This document shows, piece by piece, positions 8,369 to 17,729 of a DNA stretch of 55,657 nt (within the stretch, counting starts at the first letter, position 1; every line of letters starts with the position of its first letter). Source of the DNA: Prevotella sp. (GTDB taxonomy: Bacteria > Bacteroidota > Bacteroidia > Bacteroidales > Bacteroidaceae). The notes under the pieces were generated by a model that was given only the letters and a program-made list of their open reading frames with translations, was not told the DNA's origin and did no database searches. Location: contig JAFUAY010000022.1 in NCBI GenBank assembly GCA_017460515.1, forward strand, positions 78,945-134,601, given 5' to 3'. The position numbers and the translations under genes are program-made.

Positions 8369-9349
8369 TTATTTCACCAAGACACTTTGTGCCGTCTGCT
8401 CCATTAGATTCTTCTTCAGGCTAAGTTGGTTCTCTACAATCAGTTCGTAGTCACATTTATTTTCGCCCATCTTAATCGTCAACACAAACAACTCAAGGAA
8501 AGTCAAAAAGCAGAACAAAATGATGTAGAATGCCAGTGAAGCCTTGCTTTGCGATACGACTTTTAATGTTGCTTCAAGCTCTTCGATAAATCCAGGAGTA
8601 CGTCGGTTCATTTCTGCTCTTACTGTCTCAGCCACTTCTTTTTTGTCCTGTCGAAGCTGCTCTAATTGGGTGGAATAAATCTGAATCTGGTCATTGTTGG
8701 CTTTCAGTTGCTCTGCCAATGGATTCGCCATTGTTACAGTATTCACAATCTGAGTTTTGACCTTCTGAGGATTACCATTTTCGTCAACACCGATGACCTG
8801 CTCTTGAGTTGAAACATTTGTCCCCTTTATTACTGGACGCTTCTGTAGCTCTTCATTGAGTACTATTGTCGCCTTACTCAAGGAGTCCATATCATTTGTG
8901 ATACGTTGTATATCACCATCATAGATGGCTAAACGCTTTGTAATAGTAGCACTGATTACATCTTCTCTGTGTTCCTGAATAGCCTGCTGAATATCATTGC
9001 GGAAGATAATCTGGTCGAAGATACACGAACCCAGGACAGCCATACATAGCGCAAGCAGGACTCTCATCACGCTCATCAGTCTGGCCTTGCCCACTGTCAA
9101 TATAATGACTCGTTCAACGCAAAGAACAATGAACATAAAGGCAAGAGACACGCATATCTTCAGCGCACATGACTCGATGTTGATATATCGGTCTGCAAAA
9201 CAGTAACCAATTGTGCCCCATAACACCATCATAATGCAGATAGCTGAAAGGAGTTTCCGATACTGGCGGTAGCTGGCCTCGCCACACTCATTCAAAATGT
9301 TCTTGTCCCAACCGATAAGGAAACAACCTATATTTCTTAAAGTCTTCAT
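8369..9349 (-). CDS. DUF4407 membrane coiled-coil protein
   Basis: A 326-residue protein of the DUF4407 layout. Three N-terminal membrane segments (about 33-51, 62-85 and 92-113) are followed by a long coiled coil (about 120-255, with DIQRITNDMDSLSKA and QIQIYSTQLEQLRQDKKE) and a final membrane helix (about 271-293). The N-terminus begins with the characteristic FLIGWDKNILNECG. The loop between the last two segments is probably periplasmic. Family function is not known. It lies 11 nt after the 187-residue gene and is likely a membrane platform for the soluble products of the operon. Confidence 0.85.
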   Translation of the reverse strand: MKTLRNIGCFLIGWDKNILNECGEASYRQYRKLLSAICIMMVLWGTIGYCFADRYINIESCALKICVSLAFMFIVLCVERVIILTVGKARLMSVMRVLLALCMAVLGSCIFDQIIFRNDIQQAIQEHREDVISATITKRLAIYDGDIQRITNDMDSLSKATIVLNEELQKRPVIKGTNVSTQEQVIGVDENGNPQKVKTQIVNTVTMANPLAEQLKANNDQIQIYSTQLEQLRQDKKEVAETVRAEMNRRTPGFIEELEATLKVVSQSKASLAFYIILFCFLTFLELFVLTIKMGENKCDYELIVENQLSLKKNLMEQTAQSVLVK

Positions 9350-9360
9350 AATGTTCTGTA

Positions 9361-9924
9361 TTACTTATTGTTGATGAAATTAACTGCGTTTGCAGCAATC
9401 CCCTTAAGGAATCCTCTACGATACGACTCAATCATTGTTGTCATCTTTGGATCGTTGGCTTCTAACTGCGACTGCATTTCTTGTATCTCAGTCAAATGCT
9501 CCTCGTAACTGATACGTAAAGCCTCCATTTCTGCAGCTGCCGCAAGAGCCAAGGCCTTTTTAGCATTTTCTATCTTCACGTTTACTATTCTAATATCACT
9601 TCTGTACTTAAGAATAATTCTCTTAAACAGCATCTCAAAGTCGTTACGAATAATCTTCTCTTTCGTGTCACGATAGGTAATGTCGCTGTTCGATAATGCA
9701 TCTTTGAATCCTTCTTCCTCGAAGTTCTTGTGGATGAAGTTGAAAATAACATCAATGGGCATTCCAGTTCCCCATGTAATGGTTATTAGCTTCTCGTCAT
9801 CTTTTTTTTCTTCTTCAGGTGACATAACAACCTCGTTGTTTTCTTCCTGATGGTTCTCTGTTATAACAGGAATCATCTCTGCATTTTCTTCTGGCTTTGC
9901 GCCAAATAATCCAAATAATGTCAT
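9361..9924 (-). CDS. Unknown protein with coiled-coil region, 187 aa
   Basis: No family recognised. The N-terminal third is acidic and low-complexity, the middle (WGTGMPIDVIFNFIHKNFEE) looks globular, and residues about 105-160 form an Ala/Glu-rich coiled coil. It lies 23 nt after the one-pass membrane protein and 11 nt before the DUF4407 gene. It may pair with the DUF4407 coiled coil, but that is inference. Confidence 0.7.
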   Translation of the reverse strand: MTLFGLFGAKPEENAEMIPVITENHQEENNEVVMSPEEEKKDDEKLITITWGTGMPIDVIFNFIHKNFEEEGFKDALSNSDITYRDTKEKIIRNDFEMLFKRIILKYRSDIRIVNVKIENAKKALALAAAAEMEALRISYEEHLTEIQEMQSQLEANDPKMTTMIESYRRGFLKGIAANAVNFINNK

Positions 9925-9947
9925 AGTTGTATTTTTTTAAATGGTTA

Positions 9948-10487
9948 TTAACTCTTCAATTCGTCTATTGACAGGACAACATCTTCAATTGTTCCCTCTT
10001 GTCGGTTCCAATAGCGGAATATCATATTTCTGTTTGTTGCGATGATATGCTGCACCTTATATCCTTCTTTATCTATTTGAGCAAGGATATTACTCTTTAC
10101 AACATTCATGTCAATTTCTCCATATCTGTGCCATCTGTCATTTATTTCATAGTTACAGATAAAAGAATCCTTTGTAACCTCAGAGCTTGTCCAAGTTGTA
10201 ATCTTGTCTACTTTTACAGGACATTCGAATGTCTGATACTTTGCAAGCAATGAAAGATACTCTTCGTCATCAACTTCTTCGCCCGTCTGGATTTTCCTAA
10301 GTTCTTCTTCCGTAAAGAAATCATCTGGATTTTTGGGCTCGACGTAGTCATCAAACAGCGCAATCGAGATAATCGTTGCAACGAATAATACTATTAGAAA
10401 AATAACTGGAGAGATAGTAAAGGTCATTAACAATAAGAACCAAAACTTTCTAAACAGCCTGATGATGTGGAATAATACTTTTTTCAT
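9948..10487 (-). CDS. One-pass membrane protein, first gene of the DUF4407 operon
   Basis: A 179-residue protein with a basic N-terminus and one long hydrophobic segment (about 18-46, FWFLLLMTFTISPVIFLIVL onwards), followed by an acidic, soluble, probably periplasmic domain with no recognised fold. I chose ATG 10485-10487; a TTG 57 nt upstream lies beside a possible promoter (TATTTTTTG) and is unlikely. It is divergent from the metacaspase gene, with 121 bp between the two start codons. Confidence 0.7.
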   Translation of the reverse strand: MKKVLFHIIRLFRKFWFLLLMTFTISPVIFLIVLFVATIISIALFDDYVEPKNPDDFFTEEELRKIQTGEEVDDEEYLSLLAKYQTFECPVKVDKITTWTSSEVTKDSFICNYEINDRWHRYGEIDMNVVKSNILAQIDKEGYKVQHIIATNRNMIFRYWNRQEGTIEDVVLSIDELKS

Positions 10488-10582
10488 TTTCTTTTTGATT
10501 TTAATAGTTTCACAATCTTGTTTTCTTTGCCCTTTTATACTCAAAAAATAAGAAAGGTAACTACGTAATTAAAAAAAAGTTG

Positions 10583-10590
10583 TATTTTTG
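10583..10590 (+). promoter_or_regulatory. -7 promoter box of the metacaspase operon
   Basis: TATTTTTG followed by C fits TAnnTTTG. It ends 18 nt before the ATG at 10609, so the mRNA leader is only about 12-15 nt and a longer TTG start inside the box is excluded. Confidence 0.7.
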
Positions 10591-10608: not shown

Positions 10609-11478
10609 ATGAGATTTAGACTATGCCTAATAGTGGTAGCTTTGCTCCTCTCCTCCGCTGCAAATGCCCAGCGGAAACGGGCTTTCTTGGTTGGAATCTC
10701 ACACTACGATACTGCATTGACAGGCTATCAATGGAACAACATCAACGGTGTTGAAGATGTGAACCTTCTTAATCCTGTCTTAAAGAAACAAGGCTTCATC
10801 ACCACGACATCGTTAGATGAGCAGGCCACCTTTGATAACATCGTCAGTCAAATAGCCCTATTCTCAAACAAAACAAAGAAGGGCGACATTGTTTATCTGC
10901 ATTTTTCTACTCATGGCCAACCTGTAGAAGATCTCAACGGTGACGAAGAAGACGGATGGGATGAGTCTATTGTGCCTATTGATGCCTATAAGACATATAA
11001 GAAAGGTGTATATGAAGGGCAAAAGCACTTGACAGACGACTTGCTCAACAAGTATATCAAGAAACTCCGTGAGAAAATCGGGCCGACAGGATTTCTGTAT
11101 ATTGTCATCGATGCCTGTCATGCAGGTACATCGTCAAGAGCCAACGATGAAACAGTTCGTGGGACCCGCGTGGGGTTTACTTATAATAATAAGGTATTCA
11201 AGCCTTCCGCAAGTAAGAAATCGCATTATCGAATAGAGTCATCTGCCAAACTGTCCAACGTCCTATTTATAGAGGCCTGTCGTCCTGATCAGGTAAATAC
11301 TGAAATCAAAGTTGACGGTAAACGCTTTGGTCCTCTTTCTTATAACATTGCGCAGACTTTATCTGGTTTTACACTCACCACTAATGCCAACGACTTTGTT
11401 GAGAGCATCAAACGTTCTCTTATTAAAACGGGAAGATGGCCGAACAACCAGAATCTTGTCACAGAAACAAGCTATTGA
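10609..11478 (+). CDS. Exported metacaspase-like protease (peptidase C14)
   Basis: A 289-residue protein. Residues 1-20 are a signal peptide with an ANA/Q cleavage site. The caspase fold follows: FLVGISHYD at 26-34, catalytic His102 in FSTHGQ, a DLNGDEEDGWDE acidic loop (108-119) typical of bacterial metacaspases, and catalytic Cys170 in IDACHAG. Both catalytic residues are intact, so a cysteine peptidase cutting after a basic residue (the metacaspase norm) is expected, acting outside the cytoplasm. The stop is followed after one base by the ATG of a sigma factor, and then an anti-sigma-like gene. A link between proteolysis and sigma release is a natural hypothesis. Confidence 0.9.
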   Translation: MRFRLCLIVVALLLSSAANAQRKRAFLVGISHYDTALTGYQWNNINGVEDVNLLNPVLKKQGFITTTSLDEQATFDNIVSQIALFSNKTKKGDIVYLHFSTHGQPVEDLNGDEEDGWDESIVPIDAYKTYKKGVYEGQKHLTDDLLNKYIKKLREKIGPTGFLYIVIDACHAGTSSRANDETVRGTRVGFTYNNKVFKPSASKKSHYRIESSAKLSNVLFIEACRPDQVNTEIKVDGKRFGPLSYNIAQTLSGFTLTTNANDFVESIKRSLIKTGRWPNNQNLVTETSY

Positions 11479-11479
11479 A

Positions 11480-12064
11480 ATGGCAAAGGAGATAACACTA
11501 CAAAATACGGAGCTTAACCGCTTTATTGCTGACGAAAGGAATAAGGTGCTGGCATATCTGAGGAAGACGTTCTCTGTCTCAGATGATGATCTAAGTGATA
11601 TTTATCAAGAGGCATCCGTAGCCCTGTTCACGAATATTCGTGACGGCAAACTGTCTAATCTCACAAGTACACTCTCCACTTACTTCCTTCGTATCTGTAT
11701 CAACCAGACGTTGAAATTCATGGAAAAACAGAAGAAAGTAATCCCCCTGTTTGATGATAGCAGACTTACTAATAAGGATTCTTTCCGTCCTGATAAGATA
11801 GACGAGCTATACCAACTTTGTACAGAGGATGAGGAGGCAGAGAAGGTGTCACAATCTGAAAAGATGGTCCAGAGTATCATCGAGTCTATGCCGGACACCT
11901 GTAAGAACGTTTTTCAAGGATACTATTGGGATAATCTCACAACCACAACTATTGCTGATATGTTTGGTTTTGCCAATGCTAACTCTGTTAAGACTCAGAA
12001 ATATAAGTGTCTACAGAAATTCCGTAACAAGTATAACGAGCTAATGAGTAAGATATATGGATAA
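11480..12064 (+). CDS. ECF-like RNA polymerase sigma factor
   Basis: A 194-residue protein with a sigma region 2 (DDLSDIYQEASVALFTNIRD, then LSTYFLRICINQTLKFMEK) and a region 4 helix-turn-helix (IIESMPDTCKNVFQGYY, IADMFGFANANSVKTQKYKC). I chose ATG 11480, one base after the metacaspase stop; longer starts would lie inside the protease gene. It overlaps the anti-sigma-like gene by 8 nt. It would direct RNA polymerase to a small regulon, probably including this operon. Region 2 is divergent, so its promoter preference cannot be guessed. Confidence 0.85.
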   Translation: MAKEITLQNTELNRFIADERNKVLAYLRKTFSVSDDDLSDIYQEASVALFTNIRDGKLSNLTSTLSTYFLRICINQTLKFMEKQKKVIPLFDDSRLTNKDSFRPDKIDELYQLCTEDEEAEKVSQSEKMVQSIIESMPDTCKNVFQGYYWDNLTTTTIADMFGFANANSVKTQKYKCLQKFRNKYNELMSKIYG

Positions 12065-12731
12065 AGACAACGATATAATGATGAATGGTATTGACGAGCG
12101 TATTGAGGCATTTCTTCGTGGCTCTATGAGTGCTGAGGAAGAAGCCATTTTTAAACAGGAGATAAAAAGTAATCCTGAACTACGCAATCGTGTGGTGGCT
12201 ACGACATCGCTCATCAAAGGAATACAGGCAAAAGAGGCTGAAAGAGAAAAAGAGATTATTCACTCTACAACTAATGCCAGTAAGTCAAAAATCCGTCCTC
12301 TTATGATGTGGGCCTGCTCTACTGCTGCTGTATTTGTTATTATCTTTGGTGTCTATAAAGAACACAGATATCGGACACTTGAAGGAGCGGTTTCACCTTA
12401 TTATATACAATATGATGCTGAAGACATATCTCGTGGTGAGGCGGACTCTGCAGCAATCGTTCATCTCTATAACTTGTTCACACAGATTCAAGACAAAAGG
12501 AACGTATCAGACATTATCGAGGAGTTGGAGCCAATCTACAACTCTCTTGAGAACGATATTACTTATTACACCTTTGCTAACGACATTGCTTGGAACCTCG
12601 CATTAGCCTATGTTAAGGATGACCAAACAGATAAGGCTGTCACTATTCTACAGAAACTCAAGGACGATAATCCCGATACACCTATCTGTAAAAAAGCTGA
12701 AGAGCTGTTGGAAAAGATTAGCGAAATGTGA
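12057..12731 (+). CDS. One-pass anti-sigma-like protein with periplasmic helical domain
   Basis: A 224-residue protein. Residues 1-60 form a cytoplasmic helical domain of the anti-sigma N-terminal type (IEAFLRGSMSAEEEAIFKQE, followed by NPELRNRV). A membrane helix spans 81-100. The periplasmic part (about 101-224) has TPR-like helices (NDIAWNLALAYVKDDQTDKA). The start overlaps the sigma gene by 8 nt, which favours stoichiometric synthesis. It probably holds the sigma factor at the membrane. Release by cutting the periplasmic part, for example by the upstream metacaspase, is inference. Confidence 0.75.
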   Translation: MDKDNDIMMNGIDERIEAFLRGSMSAEEEAIFKQEIKSNPELRNRVVATTSLIKGIQAKEAEREKEIIHSTTNASKSKIRPLMMWACSTAAVFVIIFGVYKEHRYRTLEGAVSPYYIQYDAEDISRGEADSAAIVHLYNLFTQIQDKRNVSDIIEELEPIYNSLENDITYYTFANDIAWNLALAYVKDDQTDKAVTILQKLKDDNPDTPICKKAEELLEKISEM

Positions 12732-12808: not shown

Positions 12809-12976
12809 ATGTTAGGAATTAAGACAAGGCGCACCCCTATAACGGGAGACATTGCGAATAAGATTCGCAATGCTGTTGTCCGTGTCGCCAATGGTCAACT
12901 TAATGCGCAAGAGAAGGCGAGTGTGGAACGTGCTAAAGAGGCATTGAACCGCTACGAGATTAATTGGGAACTATGA
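12809..12976 (+). CDS. Small protein upstream of GNAT (possible antitoxin), 55 aa
   Basis: A 55-residue frame, MLGIKTRRTPITGDIANKIR onwards, ending EALNRYEINWEL. It is basic at the start and helical and amphipathic after. Its stop overlaps the GNAT start as ATGA (12973-12976), so translation is coupled. Small gene first, acetyltransferase second, with a promoter in front of the pair, is the layout of GNAT-type toxin-antitoxin modules. The protein lacks a recognisable ribbon-helix-helix DNA-binding pattern, so the antitoxin reading rests on arrangement only. Confidence 0.6.
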   Translation: MLGIKTRRTPITGDIANKIRNAVVRVANGQLNAQEKASVERAKEALNRYEINWEL

Positions 12977-13584
12977 AACCTGTATTAGACATAAGGAGGG
13001 CTGATGACGTATCAGCCCTTTTTGATTTTAAATGTGGAGTGAAGTCGATGGACGATTTCATCCATGACCATGAAAATGGGCTTGATAAGTTTATCAAACT
13101 ACATCTTTCTAAGCTTTGGATAGTGTATGAGAATGAGAAGGCTGTGGCATTTTTTGCCCTCAGTAAGGATGCACTGATGCTAAACAGTGATGATAGGCGA
13201 ACTATAGAACGCGATAAGGAAAAATCTGCCGCATTTGTTGCGCCTGAAGATGCAGATAAATTGTGGGAGAAAGAAAAATACCCCGCCATTGAAATTGACT
13301 ACCTCGCCGTCTGCAAAGAGAAGCGTGAAGAGCCAGGGGAACATCTGGGTACTGCAATTATACAGAAGATTGCTCAATTTGCTGCTGCCGACAAACTCTC
13401 TGCCACCATGTTCCTAACTGTTGAAGCTTTAGATACCAAGGAATACAGTGCTGTGAAGTTTTATCGTAATTGTGACTTTGAGTTTAGTGAAGTTGCGCAA
13501 AACAAGTACAATTACGAAGTCATGTATGGCAACCAGCCAACTACGCGAAGGATGTATAAACTCATCATCCCGATAGACGACTGA
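12973..13584 (+). CDS. GNAT-family N-acetyltransferase
   Basis: A 203-residue protein. DYLAVCKEKREEPGEHLGTA is the beta4 strand and the acetyl-CoA pyrophosphate loop of GNAT enzymes, and AVKFYRNCDF is the usual motif B end (YxxxGF-like). The N-terminal third carries an insertion (KSMDDFIHDHENG) seen in GNATs of the toxin-like group. I chose ATG 12973, which overlaps the stop of the 55-residue gene; a TTG three codons upstream is less likely. The substrate cannot be told from sequence: aminoacyl-tRNA if a toxin, otherwise a small molecule or protein. Confidence 0.8.
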   Translation: MKPVLDIRRADDVSALFDFKCGVKSMDDFIHDHENGLDKFIKLHLSKLWIVYENEKAVAFFALSKDALMLNSDDRRTIERDKEKSAAFVAPEDADKLWEKEKYPAIEIDYLAVCKEKREEPGEHLGTAIIQKIAQFAAADKLSATMFLTVEALDTKEYSAVKFYRNCDFEFSEVAQNKYNYEVMYGNQPTTRRMYKLIIPIDD

Positions 13585-13687: not shown

Positions 13688-13843
13688 ATGGAGGATTATG
13701 TTGAACAGATAGAGAGGTTCCTCAGGGGACAGATGAACCAGGAGGAAGAGAGCGTGTTCAAAACATCTTTGTCAACAGATGCCTATTTGCGGTCATACGT
13801 TGTCATAATGGCATTTATATTGAAAGCACAAAAAACAGGATAA
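13688..13843 (+). CDS. Stand-alone anti-sigma-like N-terminal domain, 51 aa
   Basis: The 51 residues begin MEDYVEQIERFLRGQMNQEE and align with the cytoplasmic domain of the anti-sigma-like protein at 12057-12731: IERFLRGQM against IEAFLRGSM, EEESVFK against EEAIFK, and YLRSYVV against ELRNRVV. It ends just before where the paralogue becomes linker and membrane helix. It is either a remnant of a duplicated gene or a soluble sigma-binding peptide. No good promoter is visible upstream, which favours a remnant. ATG 13688 was chosen on this alignment. Confidence 0.5.
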   Translation: MEDYVEQIERFLRGQMNQEEESVFKTSLSTDAYLRSYVVIMAFILKAQKTG

Positions 13844-14156: not shown

Positions 14157-17100
14157 TTAGTTCAATCCATCCAACATGATAAACGATGCCCAGTACTTTG
14201 GATCATCATACTTCCCATTATCAACTTTTCGCAGATATTGCTGAGCTTCTTGAAGTGACTGTCGTTTTGTCTTACCGTTGATCAGATTCCGGTAGAACTC
14301 AACCATTAATATCCTAGTTGCCTCATCATCGACCTTGTCAAGACTCATAATAATTGTATTGGCACCAGCTTTTTTGAAGCCACGTTGGAGTCCGTAAACA
14401 CCACCATAACTAACATCACCTAATGCTGATTCACATGCTGAAAGAACGACAAGGTCTAACCCTTGTAGGTTAAGCTGCGATATTTCTTTAGAAGTTAATA
14501 TTCCATCGTTGTTCTTATCTGAGACACTTTCTCGTGCAATTACCCTATTTCCTCCTGTCATTACTAAAAAAGAATGTGTTAGAGTGACATCCTCCTTAAC
14601 AGGGTCATTTATATTAGCTAAAGATTCAAGGAAATCAAAGTTGTTTTCATTTTTCTTTTTGTCAATACCGTCAGGATTAATATACATACCATGGGTTGCC
14701 ATATGAATAATACCATAGTTTTGCCCTGATAAGCTACGGAAACTAGCCTCTGTACCATTTTCTCCACTATATAGAGCCGTTGATATATTTTTGTTCGTCA
14801 AAAGTTCTTTGATTTTCTGAGTTTCTAATGCCGTGTTAAATAGAGGGTCGAAACCGCCACGATTAGCTATTCCCCTCCACAGGCTGGACTTTTCGCTTGT
14901 GTTGGTTTCTGAAACATTCTCTTTTAATTGGTTATAATCAAGACCGCCATATAGCACAGCACTATTGGGTAGATGGGTTTCACACTCCTGTATTAGTTCC
15001 TTTGTAGAAGAAAGTCTGTACATGTTATAATGTTCAAACATGCTATTCGTGCCATCTGCACTATAATACTCGATAGGAAGCATGTGCAGGATACCATCGG
15101 GCGAAAAATAAATGTCTTTAACTGTAGTGTATTGATCCAAAACCGGTTTCCATATCAGCTCGCCAACTATATCACGAATATTGCGCGTCTCAGTTCCCTT
15201 TATTTCTTCCAACTCTGATTCACTATATAACGTTATCATCTTTGGACTTGAGCAATTCTTGCCGATGACCAAGGCATGATAGGTATTGTAGCCCCCTTCG
15301 TCTTCCAAGGTAGATATGAACTCTATTGCGATAGCATCGTTGGAGAGATGTTTTTGGATATCTTTCCATTTGATGTTTAGTCTTGATATGCTATTGTTTT
15401 TTTGTTGAATCTGAGAATCAAGCAAGAGGCTTTTTGAGAAGAGAATGTAATCGTATAACTTGGCCAAAAGGCCAGCATTCCTGTCGGATTTCTCAACAAT
15501 GTTCCTATAAAGCAGGAAATTGTGTTCATATTTGTCCCATAATCGCTGCTTTTGTTCAGTTGTCATTCCCGAAAGTTCATTGATAATGAATTTCCTTAAA
15601 TAGTCCAATTCTTCAGACAAACAATTCTCAGCTTTACCAATCTGACTATCTTTCCAATAAAAATAAGATAATATCGATAGGGCGGAAATTTTACTTTCAA
15701 TGTCATTATTTGAGTTTGAAGTCGAAAGTGATTGTTCCGCATAACGGATAGCTTTTGGAATATCACCAGCTTGAAAGCAGATAATAGATAATTGTAGCTT
15801 AGGTAATGCTAAACTTATCCTATTATCGTTACTAAGAAGTTGAATACTTTGTTCGGAGCATTCTATGGCATCTTGGGGTTGATTATTTCTTAGGTAGTAC
15901 TCTGACAGCGTCATAAGATGAACTGCATACATTTGGGAATCTCCCTGCGCCAATATTTTTTTACCGTTTTCCAGTTCAGTATTTATAGCAGCTGCATAAT
16001 TACCTTGTTTCTGGTAGATTCGAGCCAGTGTCTGAAGAAAATTTGATTTATTCGTATCAATCCTTAATGTAATGGATGCCAAGGCATAGGGATTATTCAT
16101 CATATTATTCCCAGTCTGCTCCACTGCATCCACAATGTATTGTTCTGCGTTGTCATGTTCGTTAAGAACATCAATCGCTTTCTTTATGTATTGCTCTGCA
16201 TTGTCGAGCCTCTCGGCACTTTGGTAGTAATGACTGATACTATTATAAACCTCTGCTAAGGAGATCCAGTCTTTTGCATTTTTGTATATTTCTGCAGCTG
16301 ATGACTGTAATTGAACTGATTTCTCGAAATTTAGAGCCAGACCATAAGCCCAAGCTAAATCTCCCAGGAGTTCAGCGTACTTTAATGTTTTGATACCTAA
16401 TGATTCGTAGAGTTTTTTGGCAGTTTCTCCAGAGGCTATTGCTTCATCTCTTAGTCCACTTCTTTGCTGATATTTGCATTTTAGTCCCAGTAGTTCAGCA
16501 TAGTTTTCGTCATTATTGTATCCCGTACTATTCATAATGGAGATTGCTTTGTCGCAATACTCAATCGCTTTGTTGTTATCGTCCAGAAGTGAATATTTAC
16601 CTGCAACTATCTTGTATAACCCAGCTATTGGCAATGAGACTGGTTCAATGAAGTGAGGTAAAGATTCCATTTCCTTATTGGCAATGGCAATCCTTTTAAC
16701 GATACCATCATTATCATGTCCTGTTAATAATAGGTTAAGGAGTTCGTTTAAATACCCCTTTTCATTTTCTAAGTTTCTTCTTATTCTGATACATTTCAGA
16801 ATACATTGCAACGACTCATCATCTTTACCTGCATTTATATAAAACTGTGATAGGCTTCCAAGGGTATTGGCATATACAGGATATTCTTTATTTTCAACTC
16901 CAAGTTGTATGGAGTCACATTCTAAAGCCTGTTGTCCCAATTCTATAGCTTTATCATAAATTCCTGTTTCATTATAATAATGAGCAAGTTGAATATAACA
17001 AGCATCTGCCGCAAAAGAACGTTTCCCGTATATATATTGTGCTGCAGATAGTTCCTTTTCTTCAAATTCTGCAAACTTATTAACGTCACCAGATGACTTA

Positions 17101-17579
17101 TAAAAATCTGACATGTTCTTGAAGCGTTTATATTCGCTTTCTTCAAATGCCTGTGGGTAGCATTTTGATATGTCAATTCCGTATATGTTGAAAAACCTGT
17201 CTTTTGAAGGATCCTCTATCATATTGAATTTCTGAAGCCCATCTATATGTGGGAAACAGAATATGAACTGGAAAGTACCACCATAATTAAAGACTCTTTC
17301 CTCTGGTTCAAAAGGTAAGCCTATGCACTTTTTTATCTGATACTTCTTGTGAGTTTTCAGATCTTCTATAAACATCGTCTTTAGGACATTATAACTCCAA
17401 CTTTCTTGGTAATTAATAGAGCAAAATACTTTTGTCGTATCTTTTTTTAGCTCAATCTTATCTACATGTGGATGCAAAACCTCAAAACTTGTCCTATCAT
17501 ATTCAGGATTGACAATGACTTGTGCAAAACACAATAAGTTGCACATCAGTAATAAAAGTGTAGCAAAATGTCGCCTCAT
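14157..17579 (-). CDS. Exported TPR-CHAT protease
   Basis: A 1,140-residue protein. Residues 1-19 are a signal peptide (LLLLMCNLLCFAQ). From about residue 170 to 640 come many TPR units (AEVYNSISHYYQSAERLDNA, ALASITLRIDTNKSNFLQTL). The C-terminal third is a CHAT domain, caspase clan: catalytic His963 in HMATHGMY and Cys1049 in LSACESALG, with SLQEAQQYL near the end. Both catalytic residues are present. CHAT proteases are known as effectors in several immune and regulatory pairs, where TPRs sense the trigger. Here the protein is exported, lies near a metacaspase/sigma operon and is divergent from a secreted repeat protein. Confidence 0.9.
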   Translation of the reverse strand: MRRHFATLLLLMCNLLCFAQVIVNPEYDRTSFEVLHPHVDKIELKKDTTKVFCSINYQESWSYNVLKTMFIEDLKTHKKYQIKKCIGLPFEPEERVFNYGGTFQFIFCFPHIDGLQKFNMIEDPSKDRFFNIYGIDISKCYPQAFEESEYKRFKNMSDFYKSSGDVNKFAEFEEKELSAAQYIYGKRSFAADACYIQLAHYYNETGIYDKAIELGQQALECDSIQLGVENKEYPVYANTLGSLSQFYINAGKDDESLQCILKCIRIRRNLENEKGYLNELLNLLLTGHDNDGIVKRIAIANKEMESLPHFIEPVSLPIAGLYKIVAGKYSLLDDNNKAIEYCDKAISIMNSTGYNNDENYAELLGLKCKYQQRSGLRDEAIASGETAKKLYESLGIKTLKYAELLGDLAWAYGLALNFEKSVQLQSSAAEIYKNAKDWISLAEVYNSISHYYQSAERLDNAEQYIKKAIDVLNEHDNAEQYIVDAVEQTGNNMMNNPYALASITLRIDTNKSNFLQTLARIYQKQGNYAAAINTELENGKKILAQGDSQMYAVHLMTLSEYYLRNNQPQDAIECSEQSIQLLSNDNRISLALPKLQLSIICFQAGDIPKAIRYAEQSLSTSNSNNDIESKISALSILSYFYWKDSQIGKAENCLSEELDYLRKFIINELSGMTTEQKQRLWDKYEHNFLLYRNIVEKSDRNAGLLAKLYDYILFSKSLLLDSQIQQKNNSISRLNIKWKDIQKHLSNDAIAIEFISTLEDEGGYNTYHALVIGKNCSSPKMITLYSESELEEIKGTETRNIRDIVGELIWKPVLDQYTTVKDIYFSPDGILHMLPIEYYSADGTNSMFEHYNMYRLSSTKELIQECETHLPNSAVLYGGLDYNQLKENVSETNTSEKSSLWRGIANRGGFDPLFNTALETQKIKELLTNKNISTALYSGENGTEASFRSLSGQNYGIIHMATHGMYINPDGIDKKKNENNFDFLESLANINDPVKEDVTLTHSFLVMTGGNRVIARESVSDKNNDGILTSKEISQLNLQGLDLVVLSACESALGDVSYGGVYGLQRGFKKAGANTIIMSLDKVDDEATRILMVEFYRNLINGKTKRQSLQEAQQYLRKVDNGKYDDPKYWASFIMLDGLN

Positions 17580-17603: not shown

Positions 17604-17729
17604 CAATTTTTCTTCAAAAGTTGGTTACCTTTTCTGTCTTTTTGGTATAAAAGGATGAAGAAAGCCCGAAAAAGAGTCAAAAACAAGGTTGTGAAAGTGA
17701 TTCTGCTTGGGCAAGTAAACAATAAAAAG

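Follow-up and report, generated by a model that had tools for sequence, protein, structure and literature searches.

Proteolysis of a sigma factor inhibitor is a cytoplasmic event in Craspase and, reportedly, in the CalpL-CalpT-CalpS system of type III CRISPR, in which a Lon-type protease activated by cyclic oligoadenylate is said to cut the inhibitor, much as is proposed below for proteases of another type. In Craspase (CRISPR type III-E; Csx29, Csx30, and CASP-sigma), the inhibitor is cut by a TPR-CHAT protease that is activated by RNA through Cas7-11 (PMC10028731), and in the PrsW-RsiW-RasP and DegS-RseA-RseP systems an extracytoplasmic function (ECF) sigma factor is bound by a one-pass anti-sigma factor that receives an extracytoplasmic cut (PMC10202637, PMC10028731). 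Caspase-type proteases also occur beside sigma factors: sigma-70 genes were noted in 2012 in metacaspase operons of Myxococcus and relatives (PMC3501461), and caspase-EACC2 systems adjoin ECF sigma and TPR (DUF1822) genes (PMC8195603). The locus described here lies on a 55,657-nucleotide stretch of Prevotella sp. DNA (assembly GCA_017460515.1, contig JAFUAY010000022.1, positions 78,945 to 134,601; hereafter, the window) and encodes an exported metacaspase (CASP), an ECF sigma factor (SIG), and a one-pass anti-sigma-like protein (ASIG) in one coupled operon, to which an exported TPR-CHAT protease is associated. The whole probably constitutes, in rumen Prevotella-like bacteria, a switch from caspase to gene expression that operates via a cut at a strongly conserved Arg.

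The locus shares parts with each of these systems. It has in common with Craspase a TPR-CHAT protein with its catalytic dyad and a sigma/inhibitor pair, a resemblance of parts and not a homology of the whole, and it differs in its export signals, membrane-anchored inhibitor, and added metacaspase, and is not classed as a Craspase; no Cas or CRISPR protein was present among the nine window proteins scanned, a dedicated CRISPR search not having been made. The site-1 proteases named in the excerpts on anti-sigma proteolysis are PrsW, signal peptidases, and DegS (PMC10202637, PMC10028731), whereas here they would be caspase-type, and the review PMC10202637 does not use the word caspase. The Myxococcus-type operons, set beside the locus by description, likewise join metacaspase and sigma factor, but the section that covers them makes no mention of an anti-sigma factor, of export, of a cleavage site, or of CHAT (PMC3501461). 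In caspase-EACC2 the caspase, ECF sigma, and TPR neighbours are as here, but the partner proteins differ, activation by an autopeptidase is proposed, and the excerpt describes no membrane anti-sigma factor (PMC8195603).

Specifically, CASP (positions 10609-11478 of the window, + strand; ATG at 10609, stop codon ending at 11478) is followed after a 1-nt gap by SIG (11480-12064, +; ATG at 11480, stop codon ending at 12064), which overlaps by 8 nt the start of ASIG (12057-12731, +; ATG at 12057). A sequence-only reading of the window had delimited this trio, with its gap and overlap, exactly to the base, and had correctly described an exported metacaspase with intact catalytic residues, while it missed the convergent exported TPR-CHAT, the invariant Arg126 of ASIG, and a promoter-like element shared by the CASP operon and the TPR-CHAT gene. 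CASP matches Peptidase_C14 in Pfam (E=8.6e-18; no model matched it in the NCBIfam scan), its structure model retrieves metacaspases and MALT1 as fold matches, and the catalytic His102 (codon 10912-10914, +) and Cys170 (codon 11116-11118, +) are invariant in 83/83 loci of the nonredundant set. In the same 83/83 loci D50 and D168 are invariant and appear to be the counterparts of Asp95 and Asp211 of TbMCA2, a correspondence read from alignments to other metacaspases from which TbMCA2 is absent, and not by superposition; in TbMCA2 these residues accommodate basic P1 residues, and metacaspases and orthocaspases cut after Arg or Lys (PMC6426788, PMC4357240). Further invariant acidic residues (83/83) are D118, D143, and D144. 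By its predicted caspase fold, His-Cys dyad, and acidic S1 pocket, CASP is classed as a metacaspase/orthocaspase (C14B), a group whose bacterial members have, to our knowledge, a largely unknown function. A hydrophobic export signal, MRFRLCLIVVALLLSSAANAQ, is present at its N-terminus and similar signals were found in 81/83 CASP homologues by a crude, permissive hydropathy test, so that a cytoplasmic protease, which the first reading had named as fatal to its proposal, was rejected.

SIG exceeds the NCBIfam cut-off for sigma70-ECF (TIGR02937, 53.7 vs 42.9 bits), its family profile aligns with SigW along the length of SIG (E=1.6e-9), and Pfam sigma regions 2 and 4 are detected below threshold only; from these matches, SIG is assigned as an ECF sigma factor comprising regions 2 and 4 only. 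ASIG has the topology and the position of a membrane anti-sigma factor, with a single transmembrane (TM) helix at about residues 83-99 and its gene beside that of the sigma factor. Its N-terminal domain is anti-sigma-like by a match of the ASIG profile to one FecR protein (E=6e-8), and its C-terminal half is TPR-like (TPR_6 E=1e-4, under the Pfam cut-off), with a helical structure model (mean pLDDT 86) for which TPR proteins rank first in the fold search, at a weak E of 0.18. The single helix, the helical model, and the sub-threshold TPR_6 match agree with the one-pass protein with a TPR-like periplasmic part that the sequence-only reading had described.

The trio is conserved; a lack of conservation was the other refutation that the first reading had named. 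CASP relatives (E<=1e-10) were found in 49/349 genomes searched within the family, and stretches were fetched around the CASP matches and two ASIG matches. In the 53 CASP stretches thus compared, window included (L087 dropped as a duplicate; L086 fetched for its ASIG), SIG and ASIG are present in 51, in some of them in another gene order or at a distance of several kb, and are missing from L048 and L070. A pattern scan of one genome per species over 84,980 species gave 496 CASP relatives, and among the best 80 of these, a set of named loci that overlaps the previous one, SIG and ASIG lie near CASP in 71. In 82 loci CASP is separated from SIG by a median of 1 nt, and the median spacing from SIG to ASIG is -4 nt, the large outliers being order variants and doubtful starts. 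The closest named CASP relative, from a Prevotella metagenome assembly of water buffalo reticulum, is 92% identical, and the full set also occurs outside the family in L303-L306 (no SIG detected in L303). That an unrelated exported protease merely stands beside an ordinary ECF sigma/anti-sigma pair would agree with the 9/80 CASP loci that have no SIG and/or ASIG in the stretch (L180 and L253, at contig ends, and L211, L213, L214, L218, L245, L249, and L255), but it is highly improbable given the conserved order, the 1-nt median gap, and the retention of SIG and ASIG beside CASPs just about 30% identical to that of the window; such chance neighbourhood was rejected on the 71/80 conservation and the tight median gaps. 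Beyond the order, 19 phylum-level loci (L160-L178) are without the trio, their CASP-like proteins being mostly larger or placed elsewhere; one of them, L171, has a sigma/anti-sigma-like pair with Arg-Asp near other caspases. No CASP relative was confirmed in the pattern scan of viral contigs.

Two further observations concern the CASP loci. L211, L213, L214, and L218 carry a CASP subfamily that lacks SIG and ASIG and is conserved next to apparent exopolysaccharide genes. Moreover, L044 and L087, from the genomes of two species, are 99.8% identical over about 9.8 kb (L044 5722-15515, with SIG, ASIG, AbiH, CHAT, and CASP) and show no match over most of the flanks fetched, as would result from a recent transfer or from misbinning.

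The predicted cleavage site is at Arg126 of ASIG (Arg126-Gly127 codons at 12432-12437, +). Across 51 distinct ASIGs from CASP loci, most of them selected for their position and TM helix and without regard to the motif, and some 10 with a profile, Arg126 is the sole invariant column, the next best reaching 48/51, and the following residue is Gly in 36, Ser in 10, and Ala in 5. The same analysis was extended to a nonredundant set (119 of 183 ASIGs at 70%), found with a profile containing the Arg column, in which an ASIG is considered linked when CASP and/or CHAT lies within 6.5 kb. Arg is kept in 97/100 linked ASIGs (both proteases, 66/68; CASP only, 15/15; CHAT only, 16/17), with Lys in one and another residue in two, and is followed by G in 68, S in 20, A in 7, and D in 2; compared with the 4/9 of the unlinked ASIGs, which have neither protease nearby and over 4 kb of flanking sequence on either side, this gives a Fisher p=5.5e-5, ignoring relatedness. 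An R-small dipeptide lies within 60 residues past the helix in 42/43 ASIGs vs a mean of 18.6/43 after shuffling, a count that for L075 took another ORF (open reading frame), the L075 ASIG itself having Arg-Ser. In linked ASIGs the predicted helix precedes the site by 13 to 42 residues, and in the model of the window ASIG it falls between helices 79-115 and 131-146, where residues 121-130 have a mean pLDDT of 64. At nine loci ASIG is about 164-180 residues long and ends in a short periplasmic tail devoid of the TPR domain, and the Arg-Gly is kept. Arg126 and its small neighbour are probably the P1-Arg site expected for metacaspases.

Alternatively, Arg126-small could be a structural or recognition motif, for instance one at which the TPR of CHAT docks, and ASIG could work without proteolysis, as might be suspected from the occurrence of Arg in some ASIGs with neither protease nearby. 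We regard this explanation as decidedly unlikely, since the Arg outlasts the loss of the folded periplasmic domain, sits in a low-confidence stretch between model helices, and is accompanied by P1 and P1' residues that suit metacaspase specificity. The homologues without CASP add context. In two sister SIG-ASIG pairs without a caspase the adjoining gene is PrsW (E=3.7e-36 and 9e-37; L148 9203-9955 and L150 1940-2686), and the ASIGs have Arg-Gly in L148 and Lys-Gly in L150; PrsW, an established site-1 protease, cuts the anti-sigma factor RsiW in B. subtilis (PMC10202637), and its presence in these pairs speaks for a site-1 cut of ASIG. Among the other eleven ASIG homologues without CASP nearby, Arg-Gly is present in L147 (beside CHAT) and L149, Gln-Arg-Ala in L155, L157, and L158 (L155 is a FecR protein by Pfam and the other two look alike), only an Arg-Ala not aligned to the site in L151, and no R-small dipeptide in the remaining five.

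The identity of the cutter involves a second protease. TPR-CHAT (14157-17579, - strand; CHAT E=1.4e-51) is a protein of 1140 residues with an export signal, encoded on the opposite strand 1.4 kb downstream of the trio, and its His963 and Cys1049 correspond to a dyad kept in 89/89 CHAT proteins with a length of 600 residues or more; by the same crude, permissive test 82/89 carry export signals, some starts being doubtful or cut. CHAT lies within 6.5 kb of ASIG in 68/83 CASP-linked nonredundant cases, and around the 100 linked nonredundant ASIGs it is downstream and convergent in 38, downstream in the same direction in 36, and absent from the seven downstream genes in 26. In other families of the order, SIG-ASIG is often followed by a convergent TPR-CHAT with no CASP nearby, and the Arg is kept. 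As judged from this placement, from its sequence, and from the promoter-like element described below, TPR-CHAT is a member of the gene set and a second exported caspase-like protease, and it may be the cutter or an upstream partner, because CHAT loci without a nearby metacaspase keep the Arg site. TPR-CHAT could even be the sole site-1 protease of ASIG, with CASP a later addition, an effector or an amplifier from the sigma regulon. The 16/17 nonredundant ASIGs of CHAT-only loci that keep the Arg point in this direction, as does, by analogy, the cut that the TPR-CHAT Csx29 of Craspase makes in a sigma inhibitor (PMC10028731). Conversely, the Arg is present in 15/15 CASP-linked ASIGs without CHAT within 6.5 kb (L187, L207, and L258 being near contig ends), and here it is CASP, not CHAT, that shares an operon with SIG and ASIG; a sole role of TPR-CHAT is accordingly possible rather than probable.

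The two proteases might also act in series. In the CASP linker, 14 residues past the catalytic Cys, the dipeptide Arg184-Gly185 (codons 11158-11163, +) is invariant in 83/83 loci and also occurs in CASPs without SIG/ASIG neighbours. Caspases are processed near the position that Arg184 holds, and for these two reasons the dipeptide is best read as a maturation site. In a two-step cascade, TPR-CHAT would be the sensor and initiator that activates CASP at Arg184-Gly185, and CASP the executioner that cuts ASIG at Arg126-Gly127, in line with the invariance of a CASP dipeptide identical to that of the window ASIG and with the export signals and promoter-like element common to both proteases. Such a cascade appears unlikely, as autoprocessing equally explains Arg184, the Arg-Gly persists in CASPs without SIG and ASIG, and CHAT-only loci need no CASP.

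The regions upstream of the CASP operon (10534-10561, +) and of the TPR-CHAT gene (17624-17651, -) have in common the bipartite promoter-like element TTTATAC-N15-GGTAAC, identified by pattern match. With N14-22 allowed, it has 2 matches in the window vs 0.01 expected, and TTATAC-N14-22-GGTAAC has 2 matches in the 2.27-Mb assembly, in these two places only, against 4 for the reversed pattern. In close relatives a looser form lies 5' of CASP in 38/39 loci (some duplicates) and of CHAT in 13/36, many CHAT starts in this count being uncertain, and its 55 matches in 33 sources are nearest to CASP in 34 cases, to CHAT in 12, to another gene in 4, and to none in 5. The element is taken as the promoter that SIG would recognise. 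Downstream of it, at 10583-10590 (+), TATTTTTG is conserved in an alignment of 27 upstream regions and resembles the -7 element of Bacteroidetes, whose consensus we take to be TAnnTTTG; because this separate element follows, another protein may bind the shared one.

Taken together, it is fairly probable that clan-CD proteases act as the site-1 protease on ASIG and thereby free SIG. The N-terminal domain of ASIG would keep SIG at the inner membrane until the exported TPR-CHAT and/or CASP is activated by a stimulus arising beyond that membrane; TPR-CHAT or CASP would then cut, after Arg126, the linker that joins the membrane helix of ASIG to its TPR domain, general proteases would remove the ASIG stump (a site-2 step is assumed), and the freed SIG would transcribe its targets. 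Here these likely include the CASP-SIG-ASIG operon and the TPR-CHAT gene, so that the circuit would feed back on itself, because the two share the promoter-like element. The simpler circuit of the sequence-only reading, a periplasmic protease that cuts the anti-sigma factor, gains from the invariant R126-small site and from the pocket Asp residues suited to a basic P1, and has to be amended for the overlooked TPR-CHAT, which may be the cutter or act upstream.

Several observations weigh against this reading. ASIG is assigned its putative anti-sigma role from gene position, topology, and a profile match rather than from membership in a curated family of such factors, and no NCBIfam model scored above its cut-off for ASIG. 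No M50 site-2 protease was found in the assembly of the window, which is 65% complete, and 14/14 control genomes have one. The site itself has exceptions on both sides: linked ASIGs without the Arg are L241 (Lys), L302 (Met), and L303 (Pro per alignment, His-Gly by eye), Arg-Asp occurs in the linked nonredundant ASIGs L224 and L306 (among the named loci outside the set of 51, L224-L226 have Arg-Asp and L241 Lys-Gly), and four unlinked ASIGs keep the Arg (L148, L149, L293, and L307), as do 9/10 of those without CASP or CHAT nearby but with short flanks, which are uninformative. SIG and ASIG are lacking at some CASP loci, such as L211, L213, L214, L218, and L255. Lastly, the promoter-like element is upstream of CASP in only 20/83 nonredundant loci and absent in 63/83, and is hence clade-specific, and a search of wider relatives for promoter words shared within a locus gave no clear signal (11/35 vs 8/35 in mismatched pairs); since this search hardly beat the mismatched pairs, co-regulation is claimed for the clade of the window only.

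Other genes surround the set. Between ASIG and TPR-CHAT, a 55-residue ORF overlaps a GNAT acetyltransferase-like gene (12809-13584; below the Pfam cut-off only) in an arrangement like that of a toxin-antitoxin pair, and GNATs about 70% identical occupy the same place in L038 and L040. A short ORF, mini-ASIG (13688-13843, +), encodes the anti-sigma-like domain alone, with no TM helix; it has homologues in relatives, shows apparent purifying selection (pN/pS 0.27-0.45 over five sequences), contains an internal stop in one copy (G241), and is perhaps a soluble second anti-sigma factor. Divergently from CASP lie three genes (8369-10544, -), for a DUF4407 protein (8369-9349; E=6e-35) and then at 9361-9924 and 9948-10544; a DUF4407 homologue is divergent upstream in 14/83 nonredundant CASP loci, the distant L054 and L055 included, 74 of the 83 having at least 3.5 kb upstream, and this gene set is possibly an associated unit. 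In the interval between ASIG and CHAT, extra ORFs of at least 90 residues are present in 25/74 loci, a few of these ORFs being on the other strand, and none in 49/74. Ten such cargo proteins from eight loci were scanned, and the seven recognised, in seven loci, are AbiH, SIR2_2, DUF2971 (two), DUF3990, RhuM, and Peptidase_U49, which hints at defence or toxin genes, although most loci have none. PADLOC returned no catalogued anti-phage system, only a weak hit of CASP to a 'caspase' model (E=2e-8), marginal matches for SIG (Csx21, E=1.4e-4; HamB, E=0.0096), and none for ASIG, GNAT, or CHAT. A full caspase cascade, in which TPR-CHAT and then the metacaspase would cut at an identical Arg-Gly dipeptide outside the inner membrane, first in the metacaspase linker and then in the anti-sigma factor, and would release an ECF sigma factor that amplifies itself and, in some lineages, drives swappable defence-like cargo (AbiH, SIR2-like, DUF2971, DUF3990, Peptidase_U49), is a speculative and rather unlikely extension; if it held, the module could serve as an immune or cell-fate switch that senses the envelope.

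As to novelty, the sequence-only reading knew of no described system with this trio, and neither the exact exported trio nor an exported caspase acting on an anti-sigma factor was found in searches of open-licence papers; caspase-sigma operons and neighbourhoods and Craspase are known, however, and owing to these three literature neighbours (PMC8195603, PMC10028731, PMC3501461) the gene set is not categorically new. Its interest lies in giving a large clade of exported metacaspases a probable natural substrate, one predicted scissile bond, and a read-out in transcription, whose conjunction makes the long-standing question of metacaspase function directly testable. If the proposed mechanism is true, caspase-type proteases would count among the site-1 proteases by which sigma factors are set free, and the protease-inhibitor-sigma logic of Craspase would recur in a membrane-based form in Bacteroidales of the gut and rumen.

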